In this document: in pieces, positions 10,288 through 25,417 of the stretch | Layout of the letters: each line of letters opens with the position of its first letter | How positions within the stretch are numbered: the stretch's first letter is position 1 | NCBI RefSeq assembly: GCF_030651745.1 | Contig: NZ_JAUSCC010000006.1 | Coordinates: 1 to 31,067, forward strand | DNA from: Methylophaga sp. | Lineage (GTDB): Bacteria > Pseudomonadota > Gammaproteobacteria > Nitrosococcales > Methylophagaceae | DNA: 31,067 bases | Direction: 5' to 3' | The notes under the pieces: generated by a model | What the model saw: only the letters and a program-made list of their open reading frames with translations | The model's database searches: none | What the model was told of the DNA's origin: nothing | Translations under genes and position numbers: made by a program

Positions 10288-10356
10288 TTGTCTCGAAACA
10301 GCCAAAATTCCATATTTTCCTGTGTGGAGCCGTACTTAACGTAAGCACATCTTTGA

Positions 10357-17005: not shown

Positions 17006-17341
17006 TTATTTAACCCGCATATCGTTTTTAACAGATTTTACGCCAGCCACACTGCGGGTGATAACCACAGCACGATTGATGTCTGCTTGTGAGCTGACAA
17101 AACCACTTAACTGCACAACACCTTTAAATGTTTCTACATTTATCTCGGCCACTTTAAGTGTTTCTTCATTAAGAATAGCGGCTTTAACTTTGGCAGTAAT
17201 CACACTGTCATCAATATATTCACCGGTGCCAGATTGAGTCGATGTGGAGGCACAGCCACTTAACGTGAGCAGAGCTGCACCACTTATCAGGCTGGTGGTT
17301 AACATCGTGACAAACAACAAACGTTTAGAAATTGTATTCAT
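17006..17341 (-). CDS. BON-domain lipoprotein
   Basis: BON domains occur in OsmY, Kbp and DolP and are thought to bind membranes or ligands in envelope stress. This 111-residue protein has a signal peptide with lipobox LSGC (Cys30). A single BON domain (about 42-110) follows, with IDDSVITAKVKAAIL, the VETFKGVVQLSGFV strand pair and the closing VAGVKSVKNDM. The residue after the lipidated Cys is Ala, so outer-membrane sorting is likely. It lies 62 bases after the diguanylate cyclase gene on the same strand and may be co-transcribed or have its own promoter. The terminator at 16941-16974 ends it. Confidence 0.9.
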   Translation of the reverse strand: MNTISKRLLFVTMLTTSLISGAALLTLSGCASTSTQSGTGEYIDDSVITAKVKAAILNEETLKVAEINVETFKGVVQLSGFVSSQADINRAVVITRSVAGVKSVKNDMRVK

Positions 17342-17403: not shown

Positions 17404-18795
17404 TTAAGACTCGACTTCTCCAGATAGATTGTGTGGTTCGGAATAATAGAAGTTATTCTTGCCAGATTTCTTAGCGTGATACATGGCTCTGTCAGCGCAT
17501 TCCGTCAACTTAGTGGCATCTGTACCATCATCAGGATAAATGCTGATGCCGATACTTGCCGCTAGCATTATTTCGTTGTCATTTATTGTTAGAGGTTCAG
17601 CAATTGCCGTAAGTATTTGCTTTGAGACCTGTTTGGTGTCATCAGGCATTTCTATTTCACCTAACAAGATCAGAAACTCATCGCCACTACGTCGGCACAC
17701 GGTGTCGGTACTGCGGATACAATTGGTGATACGGTCAGCGACAGAGGAAAGTAACAAGTCACCTGTCAAATGACCGAATGTGTCATTGGATTTTTTGAAA
17801 TCATCCATATCCAAAAACAGCAACCCGACCCGTTTATTGTGTCGTTCAGCCATGCCAATCGATTGTGTCAGGCGTTCATTAAACAAAGCAAGGTTGGGCA
17901 ATCCTGTCAGATGGTCATACCATGCCAGCCGGCTGGTTTTTTCCATCATGGCTTCAGATTTTGCAACATCGTGAAAAACGATGACGGCACCTGTCACTTC
18001 TTTATCACGATTATGAATAGGCGCTGCCGAGTCTTCTATTTCAATCTCAGTGCCATCATGAACAATCAAGATACTGCCACTCGCCAGGGCAACCGTTTTG
18101 TTTTGCTGCATGGCAGTTGTAGCGGGATTTGGCGCTGTTTCTCGGGTTTCCCCATCAATGATATTAAATACTTCAAATAGTGGTTTACCAATGGCTTGCT
18201 GACGATCCCAGCCGGTCAAATGTTCTGCTTCAAGATTAAGATAGGTCACATTTCCGGCAAGATCGGTTGTCAGAACGGCATCGCCGATAGAATCGAGGGT
18301 AACTTGAGCGCGTTCTTTTTCTTCGAATAACGCGTTTTCAACTTTTTGTAACACTAACTCGAGAGCCTTGCGTTGCGAGATATCTTCGATCATCAACAGA
18401 CTTGCAAATGGATATTGACCATCTTCCAGCAATGATACATGCAGGCGAGTCCAGACCATGCTGCCATCATTACGGATCAGACGAATATCATTTTGTAGAG
18501 CGGTATGGTTGAGAACAGCGTTCTTCCAGCTGATATCCAACGAAGATACATCTTCGGCGTAGATGCATTTACGCCAATCGGTATCGATTATTTCACCGTC
18601 GGTATAACCCAAAATAAGATCATAAGCCTGATTCGAATATAAACAACGACGCTTTTCATCACACAGAACAATGCCTAGAGGAAATTCATCGCATAGTTTT
18701 TTCAGGTTCTCATAATCAAGTTGATCGCCTCGTTGCTTAGGCAGTATTTGCCAGATTGAATTATTGTCTGTGTAACGGGTGCGTAGGGTTCTCAT
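17404..18795 (-). CDS. PAS-PAS-GGDEF diguanylate cyclase
   Basis: GGDEF enzymes make cyclic di-GMP, which controls motility and biofilm. This 463-residue protein has two PAS domains (about 30-145 and 160-280) linked by a short helix, then a GGDEF domain (about 290-455) starting YDHLTGLPN. The active-site loop reads RRSGDEF (SGDEF at 370-374), a first-position variant common in active enzymes. The inhibitory I-site RSTD (361-364) lies exactly five residues before it. No transmembrane segment or EAL domain is present, so it is probably a cytosolic sensor. The frame can start at a TTG (18816); I chose the ATG at 18795, which has GGTGA eight bases upstream. It diverges from the Crp/Fnr gene across a region with repeated operators. 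Confidence 0.92.
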   Translation of the reverse strand: MRTLRTRYTDNNSIWQILPKQRGDQLDYENLKKLCDEFPLGIVLCDEKRRCLYSNQAYDLILGYTDGEIIDTDWRKCIYAEDVSSLDISWKNAVLNHTALQNDIRLIRNDGSMVWTRLHVSLLEDGQYPFASLLMIEDISQRKALELVLQKVENALFEEKERAQVTLDSIGDAVLTTDLAGNVTYLNLEAEHLTGWDRQQAIGKPLFEVFNIIDGETRETAPNPATTAMQQNKTVALASGSILIVHDGTEIEIEDSAAPIHNRDKEVTGAVIVFHDVAKSEAMMEKTSRLAWYDHLTGLPNLALFNERLTQSIGMAERHNKRVGLLFLDMDDFKKSNDTFGHLTGDLLLSSVADRITNCIRSTDTVCRRSGDEFLILLGEIEMPDDTKQVSKQILTAIAEPLTINDNEIMLAASIGISIYPDDGTDATKLTECADRAMYHAKKSGKNNFYYSEPHNLSGEVES

Positions 18796-18964
18796 TAATG
18801 AAATCACCCATGCCAAGGCATTTCACGAACGATATTCGGATGGCCATAATCAGCATGAATCGTTATAACGAATAGACAATATTCAACAAAATTTATGTTT
18901 AGCATGATGGCAATGCTCTCCAATTACATTTTTTTCAGAATAATATGGAACAAGCTGTTGCGTC

Positions 18965-18980
18965 TGTGCGTTTTCGTACA
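18965..18980. promoter_or_regulatory. Candidate Crp/Fnr-type operator, site 1
   Basis: TGTGCGTTTTCGTACA is an imperfect dyad, TGTGCG-N4-CGTACA, with one mismatch between arms. It lies between the diguanylate cyclase and Crp/Fnr starts. Confidence 0.6.
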
Positions 18981-19021
18981 AATGAGCTGCTTAATAAAAT
19001 ATTTCATGTCGAAATGATTTA

Positions 19022-19037
19022 TGTGCGTTACCGTACA
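19022..19037. promoter_or_regulatory. Candidate Crp/Fnr-type operator, site 2
   Basis: TGTGCGTTACCGTACA repeats site 1 at 14 of 16 positions, 57 bases downstream and in the same orientation. A half site TGTGCGTTA follows at 19055-19063. The rest of 18796-19175 holds no gene. Confidence 0.62.
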
Positions 19038-19175
19038 AACAATAAAAGGGGATTTGTGCGTTAATAAGGGATCAATCCTATTGTTTTTTCCTGTTTTGCA
19101 AACTCATATCAAATTTATGTGGGTAGTCAAAGCTGTCAAAACAGATCATTTATGTGAGCAAAAAGTTGTGAGTTT

Positions 19176-19886
19176 ATGAGTCTAGAGCATGACCCTTGTC
19201 AGAATAATCTTTTGGCAGCGTTGCCAAAGGACGAACTTGCACGTCTGTTACCTGATTTACAGTTAGTTGAAATGCCTTTGGGCGAAACGCTTTACTCTCC
19301 AGATACTCCGATGCAGCATGTGTATTTTCCCACGACAACAATTGTGTCCTTATTGCATGTGATGGAAAGTGGTGCTTCAGCAGAGATTGCTGTGGTTGGC
19401 AAAGAGGGCATTGTCGGTGTCTCTTTATTTATGGGCGGTGAAACCACCTCTAGCTGGGCGGTAGTCCAAAGTGCAGGATCTGCCTATCGTCTGACCGGAC
19501 AGCGTTTGAAAACAGAGTTTTTCCGGGCAGAGACATTGCAACGTTTATTGCTGCGTTATACTCAGGCGTTGATGACTCAGATGGCGCAAACCGCTGTTTG
19601 TAACCGCCATCACACAGTAGATCAGCAGTTATGCCGTTGGTTATTGTTAAGCCTGGATCGTTTACCTTCCAATGAACTGACCATGACCCAGGAGCTCATC
19701 GCTAATATGCTGGGAGTGCGTCGAGAAGGTGTCACAGAAGCTGCTGGGCATTTACAGCGCGATGGTTTGATTAAATACGTTCGGGGAAAAATCACGGTAC
19801 TCAATCGTGATGGATTGGAACACCGAGTCTGTGAATGTTATCGGGTTGTCAAAATTGAAACCGACAGATTAATGGATGGCAAATAA
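19176..19886 (+). CDS. Crp/Fnr family transcriptional regulator, first of a tandem pair
   Basis: This 236-residue regulator has an N-terminal cyclic-nucleotide-binding-type beta-roll (about 15-125, with YFPTTTIVSLL and AVVGKEGIVGVSLFMGG), a dimer helix and a C-terminal winged helix. The recognition region is LTMTQELIANMLGVRREGVTEAAGHLQ. The block NRHHTVDQQLCRWLL is characteristic of a Crp/Fnr subgroup distinct from true CRP. The cAMP-contacting Arg-Ser pattern is not seen, and there is no Fnr-type N-terminal cysteine cluster, so the signal is unknown. A weak GTGAG precedes the ATG. Two dyads plus a half site upstream suggest autoregulation. A paralogue follows 148 bases later. Confidence 0.9.
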   Translation: MSLEHDPCQNNLLAALPKDELARLLPDLQLVEMPLGETLYSPDTPMQHVYFPTTTIVSLLHVMESGASAEIAVVGKEGIVGVSLFMGGETTSSWAVVQSAGSAYRLTGQRLKTEFFRAETLQRLLLRYTQALMTQMAQTAVCNRHHTVDQQLCRWLLLSLDRLPSNELTMTQELIANMLGVRREGVTEAAGHLQRDGLIKYVRGKITVLNRDGLEHRVCECYRVVKIETDRLMDGK

Positions 19887-19958
19887 TCACGTTAAATAAA
19901 TCATTTGACTCTGTGTGTGCTGGCAGACAGATAGAGTCTAATTGTAAGCATATGCTCA

Positions 19959-20016
19959 GCTGATAAAGCGTGATACACCATCTTGGCACCGATAATCTCC
20001 GTGCTGTTTTATCAGC
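19959..20016. promoter_or_regulatory. Widely spaced inverted repeat between the two Crp/Fnr genes
   Basis: GCTGATAAA (19959-19967) and TTTATCAGC (20008-20016) are exact reverse complements 40 bases apart. The function is unclear and chance is possible. Confidence 0.3.
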
Positions 20017-20034
20017 AATTAATGGAGTTTCATA

Positions 20035-20778
20035 TTGCTTATTCGTGACAAACAACCACTTAATCATCTGATTGCCGACTTACCTGAATCTGAAAGAAAA
20101 CGTCTTATTGCCAAATGTGAGACTGTCGAGTTGGTTTTCAATGAAACGCTAACGACACCGGGAGAGCCTCTTAAATTTGCCTGGTTTCCCAATCAAGGCT
20201 TTATATCCTTAACTGTGCCCGCCGATGAACGATCCAATCTGGAAGTTGGCTTAATTGGTAATGAGGGCATGCTGGGTAATACCTTGGTGTTGGGCATTAA
20301 AACAGCACCATTACATGCGTTGGTTCAAGGGGCAGGGCAGGCATTACGGATATCGGTTGCTCATCTGCAGCAGCAGATTAACCATAGTCCTGCGCTGGAA
20401 GCCACGCTGAAAAAATATTTGTATGTAACAGTAGTTCAGTTATCACAAACTGCAGCCTGCACACGATTTCATTTGGTAGAAGCCCGGCTGGCCCGGTGGT
20501 TATTAATGACCCGCGATCGCGCTGAATCAAATCAATTTCGAATAACCCAACAGTTTCTGGCTTATATGCTGGGGGTACGCCGAGTGGGTATTACCAGAGC
20601 AGCCACCGCATTACATCAACGACAGTTGATCAATTATCATCGGGGCAGTATCACGATTACCGACCCTTCGGGATTAGAGGCTTCCGCATGTAGCTGCTAT
20701 CAAATAGATAAACAAACTTATCAGCGGATCATGCAATCGATGGATGATGATTTGCTTGATGATTCATTGGTTCGCTAA
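20035..20778 (+). CDS. Crp/Fnr family transcriptional regulator, second of a tandem pair
   Basis: This 247-residue paralogue of the preceding regulator shares its layout. The beta-roll shows FAWFPNQGFISLTV and LIGNEGMLGNTLVLG, followed by the signature CTRFHLVEARLARWLL and the winged helix FRITQQFLAYMLGVRRVGITRAATALHQ. The conserved GVRR..(V/I)T recognition helix suggests that both proteins may read similar DNA. It starts with TTG; GGAG lies seven bases before it, and no nearer ATG preserves the fold. The C-terminus carries an acidic tail (MDDDLLDDS). It probably has its own promoter, given the 148-base gap. A weaker copy of the dyad overlaps its stop and precedes the DUF3309 gene. Confidence 0.9.
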   Translation: MLIRDKQPLNHLIADLPESERKRLIAKCETVELVFNETLTTPGEPLKFAWFPNQGFISLTVPADERSNLEVGLIGNEGMLGNTLVLGIKTAPLHALVQGAGQALRISVAHLQQQINHSPALEATLKKYLYVTVVQLSQTAACTRFHLVEARLARWLLMTRDRAESNQFRITQQFLAYMLGVRRVGITRAATALHQRQLINYHRGSITITDPSGLEASACSCYQIDKQTYQRIMQSMDDDLLDDSLVR

Positions 20779-20784
20779 CGTACA
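20769..20784. promoter_or_regulatory. Candidate Crp/Fnr-type operator, site 3 (weaker)
   Basis: GGTTCGCTAACGTACA keeps the CGTACA half exactly and 4 of 6 bases of the other half at the same N4 spacing. It is centred about 65 bases before the DUF3309-type ATG. Confidence 0.45.
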
Positions 20785-20841
20785 GACAGAATGAATATTT
20801 GTTTATATCGTGCTTATTTAGTTGTCTGAAAGGGAAACGCC

Positions 20842-21000
20842 ATGAGCATAAGCACTATTCTGTTAATCGTTCTGATTTTAATATTGATCGGGGCAATTCC
20901 ATCTTGGCCGCACAGCAGAAACTGGGGTTATGGACCAACGGGTATAGTTGGGGTGTTATTGATTGTGTTACTGGTGTTATTACTGACCGGTCGAATTTAA
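20842..21000 (+). CDS. Small membrane protein, DUF3309 type
   Basis: This 52-residue protein begins MSISTILLIVLILILIGAIP, has a short polar turn SWPHSRNWGYGP, and ends with a second hydrophobic segment GIVGVLLIVLLVLLLTGRI. This hairpin of two membrane segments around a Trp/Pro/Gly turn fits the DUF3309 family, often found near stress genes; the function is unknown. AAGGGA lies about six bases before the ATG and a strong terminator follows, which supports it as a real gene despite its size. A possible Crp/Fnr-type site lies upstream. Confidence 0.85.
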   Translation: MSISTILLIVLILILIGAIPSWPHSRNWGYGPTGIVGVLLIVLLVLLLTGRI

Positions 21001-21063: not shown

Positions 21064-22164
21064 CTATTCTGAGATATTGACCTTTATTCCCTCAGCCAAT
21101 CGGGCGTTAGGATTGAGGATGACACGATCATCGGTGACAAGACCCGACAGGATTTCTACTTCACTATTATCCAGCCGACCTACCCGAACATTTTTAATTT
21201 CAACCTGATTATCGGCATTCACCAGCATCACCGCTGGCTTGCCTTGAATGGTTTTCAATGCATTAACCGGAATACGTACTGCATCCGCTCGTTCCTGCAC
21301 CTGTATTGTCAGTTCACCACTTAAACCGGCCGGTAATTTCAGATCCGCATTTTCCAGCAGATATTCCACTCGCATGGTGCCGGTTTCACGATTAACTTCA
21401 CGAGAGATCCGCGAAATAGGTACTTCAATTTGCTGATTTCCCAGATCGGGCAAGGTCAGTTGGGCAGGTTGTTGCTGGTCGATAATAAATAACTGAGTCT
21501 GCGGAATATCAACAATGACCCGTAACTTATCAGTACGGCTAATGCGAAATAATGGCATAGCATCGTTGCGGGTAATACGATTGCCTCGTTCGGCCTGACG
21601 GCGGGTAATAATGCCATCAAATGGTGCCACGATGGCGGTATAGGCAAATTCATTTTCCAGCTGTTCCAGACGTGCTTGATAGGTCGCTAATGTCGCTTTG
21701 GCCACAGCCAGCTCGGCCTCACGTTCATCGACTTCCGTGGCATTGACGGCACCCGAATCCCGCAGATTGGTATAGCGTTTTGCTACCTTTTCGGTCAGAT
21801 CCAGCGTGGCTCTCTGCCGATTGATTTCGGCCTTGGCCTGCAGAATTTCCTGTTCCAGTTCAGGCGAGGAGAGTCGGGCTAACAAATCACCTTGTTTAAC
21901 TTCATCACCAATATCGACATGGCGGCTTTCCACATAGCCATCAGCACGGGCAAAAATATCTGATTGTTCAATTGCTTCCACGCGAGAGTTAAACACCAAG
22001 GGCTGATAACTTGATATCGATTGCGGCTGTGCAACGCGTACTGAGAGAATTTCCGGGGTAGTGGCAGGCCGTTCAATATTCGCTTCGGTTTCGGGCTGAA
22101 TATAAAACCACAAAGGCACAGCGATGACCGCAGCAACTAATATTGTCTTGGTTAAGTTTGGCAT
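21064..22164 (-). CDS. RND efflux periplasmic adaptor (membrane fusion protein)
   Basis: Adaptors of this type join an inner-membrane RND pump to an outer-membrane channel. The 366-residue protein starts with one hydrophobic segment (about 5-22). It then has the lipoyl half-motifs FARADGYVESRHVDIGDEVKQGDLLARL and YTAIVAPFDGIITRRQAERGNRI around a helical hairpin (about 105-160), followed by beta-barrel and membrane-proximal domains ending in NPNARLAEGIKVNISE. Its ATG is ten bases after the pump stop, with GAGG upstream, so the two are co-transcribed. No TolC-type gene is nearby, so the channel must be supplied elsewhere. The substrate is unknown. Confidence 0.93.
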   Translation of the reverse strand: MPNLTKTILVAAVIAVPLWFYIQPETEANIERPATTPEILSVRVAQPQSISSYQPLVFNSRVEAIEQSDIFARADGYVESRHVDIGDEVKQGDLLARLSSPELEQEILQAKAEINRQRATLDLTEKVAKRYTNLRDSGAVNATEVDEREAELAVAKATLATYQARLEQLENEFAYTAIVAPFDGIITRRQAERGNRITRNDAMPLFRISRTDKLRVIVDIPQTQLFIIDQQQPAQLTLPDLGNQQIEVPISRISREVNRETGTMRVEYLLENADLKLPAGLSGELTIQVQERADAVRIPVNALKTIQGKPAVMLVNADNQVEIKNVRVGRLDNSEVEILSGLVTDDRVILNPNARLAEGIKVNISE

Positions 22165-22174
22165 CGTGAGATCC

Positions 22175-25100
22175 TCAAATTGTCGGCAGTTTTATGGGCT
22201 GCGGACGTTTAATAAATTGCATAACCATGCTGAAAGTCCAGGGCACTAAAAATAATGAGGCAAATGTGCCCAGCATCAAGCCACCGATAACGGTGCGGGC
22301 CAAAGGCGCATTTTGTTCCCCACCTTCACCTAAAGCCAGTGCCATCGGCAATAAACCGATAATCATGGTCAATGCTGTCATCAATACCGGTCTTAGTCTT
22401 GTTGAGGCTGCTTCCCGAGCCGCCTCAAAAGCCGACATGCCTGCCACCCATTGATCACGGGCAAACGTTGTGACCAACACACTATTGGCAGTGGATACGC
22501 CAATGACCATGATAAAGCCCATTAGTGCCGGAACACTGATAGTGGTTCCAGTGAGCATTAAACCGATAATCGCGCCAGAAATGGCAATTGGCGCGCCGGA
22601 TAATGCGACCAAAGGCATGATCCACGAGGCGAAGTTAAACAGCATAATGATGTAGATGAAAAATACCGCCAGTAAAAAGCCGAATAATAAATCACGGTAA
22701 GCTTCATCCATGGCGGCAGCCTGACCCATGATCTCAATATCATTGCCGGGCACAACATCTTGTTTCAGTTCTTTTACAATCTGTTGGGTAGCTTTGTAAA
22801 CCGAACCTAAGTCAGTGTTTTCGGTATTGATTAATACATTGACCGTCGGCCGTAGCATAGTACGACCAATACTGCCCGATACATTGCGTGGTGTGATACT
22901 CGCAATACTGGCCAATGGCACGGTGATATTCGGATCACTGGTTTGTACCTGCAGATTCATCAAATCATCAGTGGTGCGTAATTTATGTAATGGTGTTCTG
23001 GTTTGCACCTCATAGGAAAAACCAAACACCGGATCGGACCAGAAACTGGGAGCAACAGTACCAGCTGACCCCAACGCTCCCAGTAAGCTGTTTATCGCAC
23101 CCTGTGTGGTTACACCGAGTTCGGCTGCCCGTTTGCGATCCAGATTGACGTAGTATTCCGGCAAAGCAAATACCTGCTGAAAGCCGATATCCACAGCACC
23201 TTCAACATCCTGCATTTTCTCAATTAAGCTTTCAGCTTTTGCGATGCTGGCGGGCAGGTTACGACCGGTAAAGCGGACGTCCAAAGCAGTTGGTGTACTA
23301 CCGGAAAGCGTTTGATTGGTAGTATCGGCCGCTTGAGAAAAGAATGTGACTTCCGGAAATTTCTCTTTCAACATTTGCCGGATGGCGGATTCATACTGGC
23401 TGCTCGGTTGATGGCCTTTAGCTAATTGGATTTGCAGCTCACCATCGTAAGAACCAATGGTAAAGCTATCTATCCAGGCGCGATTAATGGAGTCGGGCAT
23501 ACCAATGTTTTCAAACATAAAATCCAGTTCTTCAGCAGGAATGATTTTGCGTATTTCCTGTTGGATCTGAGCAAACTTATCTGCTGTCTGTTCGATGCGT
23601 GAACCGGTATCTACTCGCATATAAAACCGCATTAATCCGGCATCGGTTTTAGGAAAGAAATCACGGCCGATATCCTGTAAGGCAAAGCCGGCTGCGGTGA
23701 CAATCACAATGCCGATTAACGGGGCAATCAGAATATGTTTTTGCAAGCGACCAATGGTGTTTTGTAGATGTTGCTGGCCATTGTGCAGACGATGTTCCAG
23801 TGCCAGATGTAAATGCACTAACGGGTTTTTCGATTGTTTGGTTAAAGTCTTTTCGTTGGCCAGTAATAATTTGGCCAGCGTTGGAACCACTGTGCGAGAT
23901 AGTAAATACGATGCTGCCAGACAGGCAATGACCACAATTGCCATCGGCTGGAAGATATAACCTGCCACGCCGGTTAATAAAAATATCGGTGAAAACACAA
24001 TGCAGGTAGAGAGTGTTGAAACAAATTCTGGAAAGGCAACTTCACTGGCACTGGTGAGCACAGCACGGCTCGGTTCCATGCCGTCAGCCAGATGCCGTTT
24101 GATATTTTCAATTTCAACCAGTGCGTTGTCGACCAGGATACCAATTGCTAATGCCAGACCACCGAGACTCATTAAATTCAAGGTGTTACCGGTTAAATTT
24201 AATACAAATACTGCGGTCAGTAATGACAGGGGAATCGAGGTTAAAACAATTAAAGTCGCTCGGGATGAACCTAAAAACAGTAATACCATCAACGCGACCA
24301 GTGAGCCAACAATGAGAATTTCCATCTCGATATGATGTAAAGCAGTGCTGACAAACACCGACTGATCAAAAATAGGCGAAATGGTAATGCCCTCCGGTGC
24401 AGCCGCTTGTATCGATGGCAAGCGTTCCATCAGTTCATCAATAATGCCAACAGTGGATGCACCGCCAAGTTTAATCAGCGACACCATAACGGCATTTTGT
24501 CCGTTAACGCGGGCGATATTGGTTTGTAAGGCCGTGCCATCGCGGACATTTGCTACATCACGCAGTAATATCAGCTCGCCATTTCTAGCCCGGATCGGTA
24601 AATATTCAAAATCAGCCACTGCTTGAGGACTGGCATTAACTGTGATTTGCAATTCATTCTGCGCTTCACGAATACTTCCCGATGGCAGGGTCAGGTTCTG
24701 TTCATTTATCGCCCGGGTTACATCGTTGGCGGTTAATCCTTGAGCAAACAAAGCGTCCGGATCCAGATCCACCATGATCTGCCGGGTGGCACCACCATAA
24801 GGCAAAGTCATCCGGATACCATTAATCGATTGCACCATGCCGCGTAACTGCAAACGGGCAAAGTCGGCCAGTTGGCCATCAGTCAATGTGTCAGAAGACA
24901 TAACCAGCTGAATGATCGGTGTGCTGGATTGATTGTATTCGGCGACCAGCGGTGGTGAAGTACCTTCCGGCATTCGTCGTCGAATGGTTTGTGATACGCC
25001 TGTTACCTGCGCCATCGCGTTGGCAATATCGACCTCAGGATGGAAATCGATATGAATCACCGAGGTGCCGTTTAAGGTTTGCGAGCGGATTTCCTTAAGG

Positions 25101-25330
25101 TTATCCACATTATTCATAATCGCCACTTCACTGAAGGTGGTGATTTTGGAAGCCATTTCATTGGTGTTAAGACCGTTGTAGGTCCATACCACTTTTATAG
25201 AGGGTATATTGACGCTGGGTAATACATCGACAGGTAATTTAAGGTAGCTGATAAGCCCAGCTGCAAAAATCAGCAAGCTTAAAGCAGCCACAGAATAAGG
25301 TCGGGTTAGGGCATATCGCACCAGCCACAT
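22175..25330 (-). CDS. RND efflux pump, HAE-1-like inner-membrane transporter
   Basis: This large proton-driven exporter extrudes hydrophobic compounds through a trimer. The 1051-residue protein shows the RND pattern: a first membrane segment after MWLVRYALTRPYSV, a periplasmic porter domain, TM4 with LAIGILVDNALVEIENI including the conserved Asp, a second porter domain, and C-terminal segments with LMGFIMVIGVSTANSVLV and RLRPVLMTALTMIIGLLPMALALGEG. The frame is open to 25417, but I chose the ATG at 25330: RND proteins start at this point, AGAG lies about nine bases before it, and the longer start would run close to the divergent operator. It is first in the operon, divergent from a two-component system. 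Confidence 0.94.
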   Translation of the reverse strand: MWLVRYALTRPYSVAALSLLIFAAGLISYLKLPVDVLPSVNIPSIKVVWTYNGLNTNEMASKITTFSEVAIMNNVDNLKEIRSQTLNGTSVIHIDFHPEVDIANAMAQVTGVSQTIRRRMPEGTSPPLVAEYNQSSTPIIQLVMSSDTLTDGQLADFARLQLRGMVQSINGIRMTLPYGGATRQIMVDLDPDALFAQGLTANDVTRAINEQNLTLPSGSIREAQNELQITVNASPQAVADFEYLPIRARNGELILLRDVANVRDGTALQTNIARVNGQNAVMVSLIKLGGASTVGIIDELMERLPSIQAAAPEGITISPIFDQSVFVSTALHHIEMEILIVGSLVALMVLLFLGSSRATLIVLTSIPLSLLTAVFVLNLTGNTLNLMSLGGLALAIGILVDNALVEIENIKRHLADGMEPSRAVLTSASEVAFPEFVSTLSTCIVFSPIFLLTGVAGYIFQPMAIVVIACLAASYLLSRTVVPTLAKLLLANEKTLTKQSKNPLVHLHLALEHRLHNGQQHLQNTIGRLQKHILIAPLIGIVIVTAAGFALQDIGRDFFPKTDAGLMRFYMRVDTGSRIEQTADKFAQIQQEIRKIIPAEELDFMFENIGMPDSINRAWIDSFTIGSYDGELQIQLAKGHQPSSQYESAIRQMLKEKFPEVTFFSQAADTTNQTLSGSTPTALDVRFTGRNLPASIAKAESLIEKMQDVEGAVDIGFQQVFALPEYYVNLDRKRAAELGVTTQGAINSLLGALGSAGTVAPSFWSDPVFGFSYEVQTRTPLHKLRTTDDLMNLQVQTSDPNITVPLASIASITPRNVSGSIGRTMLRPTVNVLINTENTDLGSVYKATQQIVKELKQDVVPGNDIEIMGQAAAMDEAYRDLLFGFLLAVFFIYIIMLFNFASWIMPLVALSGAPIAISGAIIGLMLTGTTISVPALMGFIMVIGVSTANSVLVTTFARDQWVAGMSAFEAAREAASTRLRPVLMTALTMIIGLLPMALALGEGGEQNAPLARTVIGGLMLGTFASLFLVPWTFSMVMQFIKRPQPIKLPTI

Positions 25331-25417
25331 ATATAGCTTCTCTATGTTATTAAAATGGAATGTCTGGATTGCCGCGACGTTACGCAACCAGCTCTGTCGC
25401 GTAGAGTGCAGCGACAA

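Follow-up and report, generated by a model that had tools for sequence, protein, structure and literature searches.

A conserved palindrome beside tandem Crp/Fnr genes of Methylophaga appears to be the landing site of an activator of small envelope and stress genes

Operators of Crp/Fnr-type regulators share the layout TGT-N10-ACA. The consensus of Escherichia coli CRP is TGTGA-N6-TCACA, and CRP contacts cAMP by residues E72 and R82; FNR recognizes the half site TTGAT and binds a [4Fe-4S] cluster by an N-terminal cysteine cluster; the operator of NtcA is GTA-N8-TAC. At class II Crp/Fnr-dependent promoters the operator is centred near −41.5, with the first base of the −10 element 29.5 bp from the centre. 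General stress regulons of the RpoS type include OsmY-like proteins. The palindrome described here, TMTGTRCGNTANCGYACAKA, resembles the E. coli CRP site in its length of 16 bp and its TGT...ACA ends, and its putative binder, Crp1, has the same fold as CRP, but the half site carries C-G in place of the A of TGTGA, and the predicted targets are envelope and stress proteins. As at class II CRP promoters of E. coli, sites lie at a predicted −41.5 before a candidate sigma70-type −10 (DUF3309, BON and dgc targets). Unlike in the FNR/FixK branch, the half site is not TTGAT and Crp1 has no conserved N-terminal cysteines. NtcA is the best match of Crp1 by sequence in the PDB (E 2e-8) and in NCBIfam, but the NCBIfam score is 33 bits against a cut-off of 245 and the operator differs. 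The target classes overlap those of RpoS-type regulons, whereas the candidate promoters are marked by a putative Crp/Fnr-type operator at −41.5. A literature search over titles and abstract openings, mostly outside subscription journals, returned no title describing the motif or the regulon, and within this coverage a Crp/Fnr-type regulator with such an operator and target set is apparently undescribed. DUF3309 itself came up in one paper of the collection searched.

The window, i.e. the whole stretch of 31,067 nucleotides analysed here, contains a leftward dgc gene followed by a BON gene, and divergent from these crp1, crp2 and a DUF3309 gene. The features of the locus are as follows.

17006 to 17341, minus strand: gene for a BON-domain (OsmY-like) protein, after dgc (PF04972, E 7e-20)
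17404 to 18816, minus strand: dgc, encoding a PAS-PAS-GGDEF protein (Pfam), divergent from crp1
18937 to 18942, minus strand: TATTCT, candidate −10 of dgc, first base 30.5 bp from the centre of site 1
18940 to 18945: TATTAT, overlapping TATTCT, 27.5 bp from the centre of site 1
18965 to 18980: site 1, TGTGCGTTTTCGTACA, putative operator assigned to the leftward dgc-BON genes; exact match, conserved in four aligned loci
19022 to 19037: site 2, TGTGCGTTACCGTACA, putative operator nearest to crp1; exact match, conserved in four aligned loci
19055 to 19067, plus strand: the so-called half site followed by TTAATAA, conserved as TGYGTTAATAA at a fixed distance from site 2
19176 to 19886, plus strand: crp1, encoding a Crp/Fnr-type regulator of 236 aa with the recognition helix VRREGVTEAAGHL (Pfam HTH_Crp_2 and cNMP_binding over cut-off)
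20035 to 20778, plus strand: crp2, tandem paralogue of 247 aa with the recognition helix VRRVGITRAATAL (HTH_Crp_2 over, cNMP_binding under cut-off)
20769 to 20784: site 3, GGTTCGCTAACGTACA, putative DUF3309 operator overlapping the 3′ end of crp2; 9 of 10 fixed positions
20806 to 20811, plus strand: TATCGT, candidate −10 of the DUF3309 gene, first base 29.5 bp from the centre of site 3
20842 to 21000, plus strand: gene for a small DUF3309 protein of 52 aa (PF11752, E 2.4e-23)

The BON and dgc genes, whose adjacency recurs in Methylophaga muralis (L002) and in genome G019, probably form one operon. Both of these relatives have the same gene order as the window and carry both upstream sites. Genes for an RND adaptor and an RND pump (21064 to 25417, minus strand) converge on the DUF3309 gene, a placement likewise kept in L002 and G019.

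Crp1 of the window is 90% identical to its counterpart in an unclassified gammaproteobacterial MAG (L001) and 88% identical to that of L002. It belongs to the Crp/Fnr superfamily by both PF00027 and PF13545, which score over cut-off, and its AlphaFold model (mean pLDDT 90.8) has Crp/Fnr-type proteins as best PDB matches. The NCBIfam CRP model was not listed for Crp1 at E 0.001, and it scored 26 bits for Crp2 at a cut-off of 266. The region corresponding to the cAMP contacts, as placed by eye, reads GVSLFMGGETTSSWAV in Crp1 and is without the R. The N-terminus of Crp1 holds C8 as its only cysteine, a position with Cys in 6% of 81 homologues. Cysteines 142, 153, 219 and 221 are near-invariant in the same homologues and three of them are kept in Crp2; they are a possible metal or redox site.

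A first-pass annotation, made from the letters of the window, had described two dyads of the pattern TGTGCG-N4-CGTACA before crp1, a half site behind them and a weaker dyad before the DUF3309 gene, and had proposed that one or both regulators bind there. The two dyads proved to be real: sites 1 and 2 match the pattern exactly and share 14 of 16 bases. By chance, both strands of the window together should hold about 0.004 exact matches (62134/4^12), which two far exceed. With up to three mismatches allowed, the window holds no excess of matches (18 found, 20.8 expected). Site 3 has two mismatches to it, as have further matches at 10321 and 23891, and taken alone is without significance within the window. 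The chance level of these looser matches would suit dyads that arose by accident and have no function. This reading is contradicted by the enrichment at crp1, DUF3309 and BON loci, the excess of exact sites, the conservation, the spacing and the composite scan presented below, and we regard it as practically negligible.

In an alignment of four dgc-crp1 regions (window, L001, L002, G019) both dyads stand out as conserved islands amid diverged DNA, in agreement with the conservation in relatives which the first-pass annotation had named as a check. The distance between the starts of sites 1 and 2 is 57, 53, 54 and 52 bp, respectively, and that between site 2 and TGYGTTAATAA is constant across the four loci. 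The proposed half site fared less well. The hexamer TGTGCG is indeed present at 19055 to 19060, but the aligned hexamer is TATGCG in two relatives and TATGTG in a third, so it is not counted as an operator half. This stretch more probably belongs to the crp1 promoter. Site 1 is assigned to the dgc-BON side, which it faces, and site 2 to the crp1 side, both as putative operators. The weaker dyad before the DUF3309 gene, which site 3 faces, is backed by three relatives with a 9-of-10 site 63–69 bp before the start, namely GGTACGCCAACGCACA in L209 and L215 and AGTACGCTAACGAACA in L214. A counterpart of the DUF3309 −10 is found at the equal position in L209, L214 and G019 (the genome of L215).

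At three more Crp1-type genes from the genus (G011, G002 contig 71, G019 contig 6) the 420 bp examined held no match; an 8-of-10 match precedes the gene of G011, and an exact site is located about 560 bp upstream of the one on contig 6 of G019. Exact TGTRCGNNNNCGYACA sites are present in 6 of 19 genomes of the genus, including three without a full-length Crp1 (G008 with two sites, G013 with one, G018 with two). The sequence TGTGCGCGTTCGCACA or its reverse complement recurs at G001:C54:2786, G002:C38:11200, G008:C1:3059931, G018:C9:181245 and G019:C5:138496, in genomes with and without Crp1. It is perhaps conserved coding DNA and not an operator. Some of the exact sites of the genus are copies of a single recurring 16-mer, perhaps coding.

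For a wider survey the best 80 of 287 Crp1 relatives were taken, which together with the gene of the window gave 81 loci. An expectation-maximization (EM) motif search, started from random seeds and covering the 350 bp upstream of each gene, yielded GTGCGCTAGCGCACAGAC as best motif, and refinement from this seed led to the palindrome TMTGTRCGNTANCGYACAKA. The pattern TGTGCG-N4-CGTACA was thereby given up as the full motif, as it widened to a longer palindrome with a central TA. Sites were scored on ten fixed positions with a threshold of nine. By this score a site was found within 350 bp of 40 of the 81 Crp1-type genes (mean of shuffled sequences 0.78, maximum 4), and none within that distance in the other 41. 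Presence of a site went with one recognition helix of Crp1: 31 of 48 loci with RREGVT had one, compared to 9 of 33 with other helices (p 0.0014). Small EM runs on the remaining helix classes (17, 10 and 6 loci) gave no trustworthy palindrome. Genome scans were run on the genomes of relatives. Among 33 genomes selected from those of the 80 loci, exact matches to TGTDCGNTANCGHACA number 51, versus three for the reversed pattern. These occurrences include sites before crp1 genes themselves and are spread over 21 of the 33 genomes, the other 12 having no exact site. One match, that of L140, falls within a long reading frame.

DUF3309 and BON genes were then considered as target sets, selected by protein family and hence independently of the motif. 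The DUF3309 Pfam model gave 41 matches in 28 of 37 genomes. Of 30 loci taken from these, 27 were readable, and a 9-of-10 site lies within 350 bp before 10 of these 27 DUF3309 genes (shuffles 0.2, maximum 2). For BON, 143 matches were obtained in 23 of 24 genomes and 12 of 30 loci had a site (shuffles 0.35, maximum 3); two of these 12 (L266 and L289) are two domains of one gene, whose site may lie inside a misplaced gene start. Together with the exact sites and their reversed control, these sets show enrichment of the motif before other genes of relatives, stress genes included, a check that the first-pass annotation had named. Furthermore, a PRC-barrel gene with a site occurs in both G001 and G019. 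Among the reading frames next to exact sites, 57 of 96 distinct ones were scanned, giving BON (5), HTH_Crp (5), OmpA (3), KGG (2), squalene-hopene cyclase (2), outer-membrane efflux (2), DUF3309 (1) and others; these neighbours were picked by eye without a matched control and their count carries little weight. In three Methylomonas loci (L168, L170, L175) exact sites separate Crp1-type genes from divergent squalene-hopene cyclase genes, hinting at a link to hopanoids; the cyclase of L175 is named from similarity seen by eye. On plasmids, Crp1 genes have KGG and YsnF genes (L324) or CsbD, glycine-zipper and desaturase genes (L325) as neighbours. In L325 there are two 9-of-10 matches, of which one has TAnnnT at 29.5 bp, L326 has a full site without TAnnnT at this distance, and one of the three plasmid loci has no site match.

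The position of the sites relative to candidate −10 elements was analysed for 75 sites, after dereplication, each read in the direction of a crp1, DUF3309 or BON gene. In 28 of them TAnnnT starts at exactly 29.5 bp from the centre, while other offsets have a mean of 1.17 and a largest count of 7 (at 8.5 bp). An earlier run (81 sites, 28 at 29.5 bp) had used targets chosen by eye and was replaced by this one with its family-defined BON set. By class, the spacing is found at 9 of 11 DUF3309, 8 of 13 BON and 11 of 51 crp1 sites, and on the opposite side of the same 75 sites 16 have TAnnnT at 29.5 bp, which fits divergent promoters. By its sequence this geometry is that of a class II activator at −41.5 in front of a putative sigma70-like −10. 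In the window the spacing is exact at site 3. Relatives of site 1 have TATGCT (L001 and L002) or TATCCT (G019) towards dgc, all at exactly 29.5 bp; in the window itself TAnnnT is absent at exactly 29.5 bp from site 1 towards dgc, and near 29.5 bp from site 2 towards crp1. The latter, and the absence of TAnnnT at 29.5 bp facing crp1 at 40 of the 51 crp1-upstream sites, is what would be expected if the site at crp1 served negative autoregulation while Crp1 activated its other targets. Against this, site 2 and TGYGTTAATAA are spaced alike in the four loci, and GTTAAT begins 30.5 bp from the centre of site 2, near class II spacing. We consider repression at crp1 possible and lean against it.

The site and its promoter element were combined into a composite pattern consisting of the site, GA, 19 bases and TAnnnT. 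In 143 genomes across the class this pattern has 18 matches in 12 genomes, compared to none for the reversed control. A Crp1-type protein (E ≤1e-30, a limit admitting more distant paralogues too) is present in 16 of the 143 genomes, which cover all 12 with a match, and none of the 127 genomes without such a protein carries one (Fisher p 1.9e-14, uncorrected for ancestry). With at least 55% identity required, 12 of 15 Crp1 genomes have a match versus 0 of 128 others, again uncorrected for ancestry. Genomes often hold several Crp-type paralogues, and shared ancestry can produce co-occurrence, so that another regulator which merely shares genomes with Crp1-type proteins might bind the motif. The strict co-occurrence speaks against this, as do the TGT-N10-ACA layout of the palindrome, expected of a Crp/Fnr operator, and a Crp-type gene beginning within 3 kb at 9 of the 18 matches; we judge it highly improbable. 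In the Methylophaga group, composite matches with 0–1 mismatches numbered 3 in G001, 3 in G002, 7 in G019 and 0 in G011, which has Crp1; the four genomes without Crp1 had 1 (G003), 0, 0 and 0. Two mismatches were too noisy to be used, as matches on both strands did not exceed the control in several genomes (matches/control: G001 8/6, G002 4/0, G019 12/1, G011 3/5, G003 4/9, G005 5/3, G006 3/8, G018 3/2).

The downstream reading frame of a composite match was usually taken as the longest within 350 bp (the second for L331 and L340), and a Pfam scan covered all 18 except L341. It identified BON (3), Ysc84 (2) and one each of CsbD, PRC-barrel, DUF5670, AI-2E transporter, Poly_export, Wzy_C, PAS histidine kinase, PAS-PAS-GGDEF, collagen repeat and Acetyltransf_6; two frames had no Pfam match. 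The PAS-PAS-GGDEF protein, from a genome outside the genus sample (G066), is 52% identical to the dgc product of the window, and its gene is divergent from that of a Crp1 homologue (79% identical to Crp1 of the window) with the site facing the cyclase.

As to which of the two regulators binds, the position of crp2 between crp1 and the DUF3309 gene could mean that binding is due to Crp2 or to a Crp1-Crp2 pair and that Crp1 does not suffice by itself. In line with this, crp1, crp2, sites and DUF3309 occur together in G001, G002 and G019, while G011 has Crp1 alone, a weak site and no DUF3309 match. A Crp2-type protein (at least 46% identity) was found in 10 of 23 genomes outside the Methylophaga set, the copy of G044 having an internal stop codon. 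Exact sites are present in 8 of these 10 and in 12 of the 13 in which none was found; the two fractions say little, because presence of sites largely guided the choice of the 23 genomes out of 33 (nine of the other ten are without a site). In addition, some of the 23 are drafts in which the gene may be missing. Nevertheless, the 12 genomes with exact sites and no Crp2-type protein found, the association of sites with the RREGVT helix, and the Crp2 helix RRVGIT, with V where most Crp1-type helices carry E, make Crp1 the likelier binder as predicted from sequence, and involvement of Crp2 as the real binder is unlikely. The earlier proposal that one or both proteins bind is thus narrowed towards Crp1. 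Crp2 may have another site or a modulating role. A 125-aa open frame at G008:C1:1596548-1596901 (L304) is 81% identical to residues 119–236 of Crp2 and without the sensor domain, perhaps a remnant.

Motif, conservation, promoter spacing, target classes and co-occurrence with Crp1 were computed; from these we infer that Crp1, presumably as a dimer, would bind the palindrome TMTGTRCGNTANCGYACAKA. Its position on the main targets would be −41.5, directly before a sigma70-like −10, from where it would act as a class II activator by recruiting RNA polymerase. For the window this predicts activation of dgc-BON from site 1 and of DUF3309 from site 3, with control of crp1 itself from site 2. Crp1-type proteins of other Beta- and Gammaproteobacteria would govern a regulon whose members are small envelope and general-stress proteins (BON, DUF3309, PRC-barrel, CsbD, KGG, Ysc84 and others). 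We assign a probability of roughly 0.8 to Crp1 being a class II activator of envelope and stress genes via this palindrome, including dgc-BON, crp1 and DUF3309. The first-pass proposal that the dyads are bound by a regulator of the locus, which would thereby control the locus itself, perhaps the diverging dgc, and DUF3309, is supported, at the level of putative binding, by conservation, enrichment at stress genes, class II spacing and co-occurrence with Crp1-type proteins. A further step would be an undescribed, widespread envelope-stress response of Beta- and Gammaproteobacteria, in which Crp1 senses by Cys 142, 153, 219 and 221 (e.g. metal or redox) instead of a cyclic nucleotide and is coupled to c-di-GMP by the adjoining dgc; this is speculative and we consider it rather doubtful.

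The repeated site thus appears to be a conserved landing site for a Crp/Fnr-type activator of small envelope and stress genes in a range of proteobacteria. Crp1-type proteins amount to at least 8000 candidates at E 1e-50, and their source names among the 120 matches listed are generic (Crp/Fnr family regulator, CRP-like, cAMP-binding protein); with a putative operator and target set they become testable. The composite pattern is specific enough (18 versus 0 in 143 genomes) for finding likely targets genome-wide. DUF3309, BON, CsbD, PRC-barrel, KGG and Ysc84 proteins are, in our view, often unexplained, and the common class II promoter predicted here would link them to one response. For an uncharacterised regulator family and for the DUF3309 protein this suggests a first likely role.
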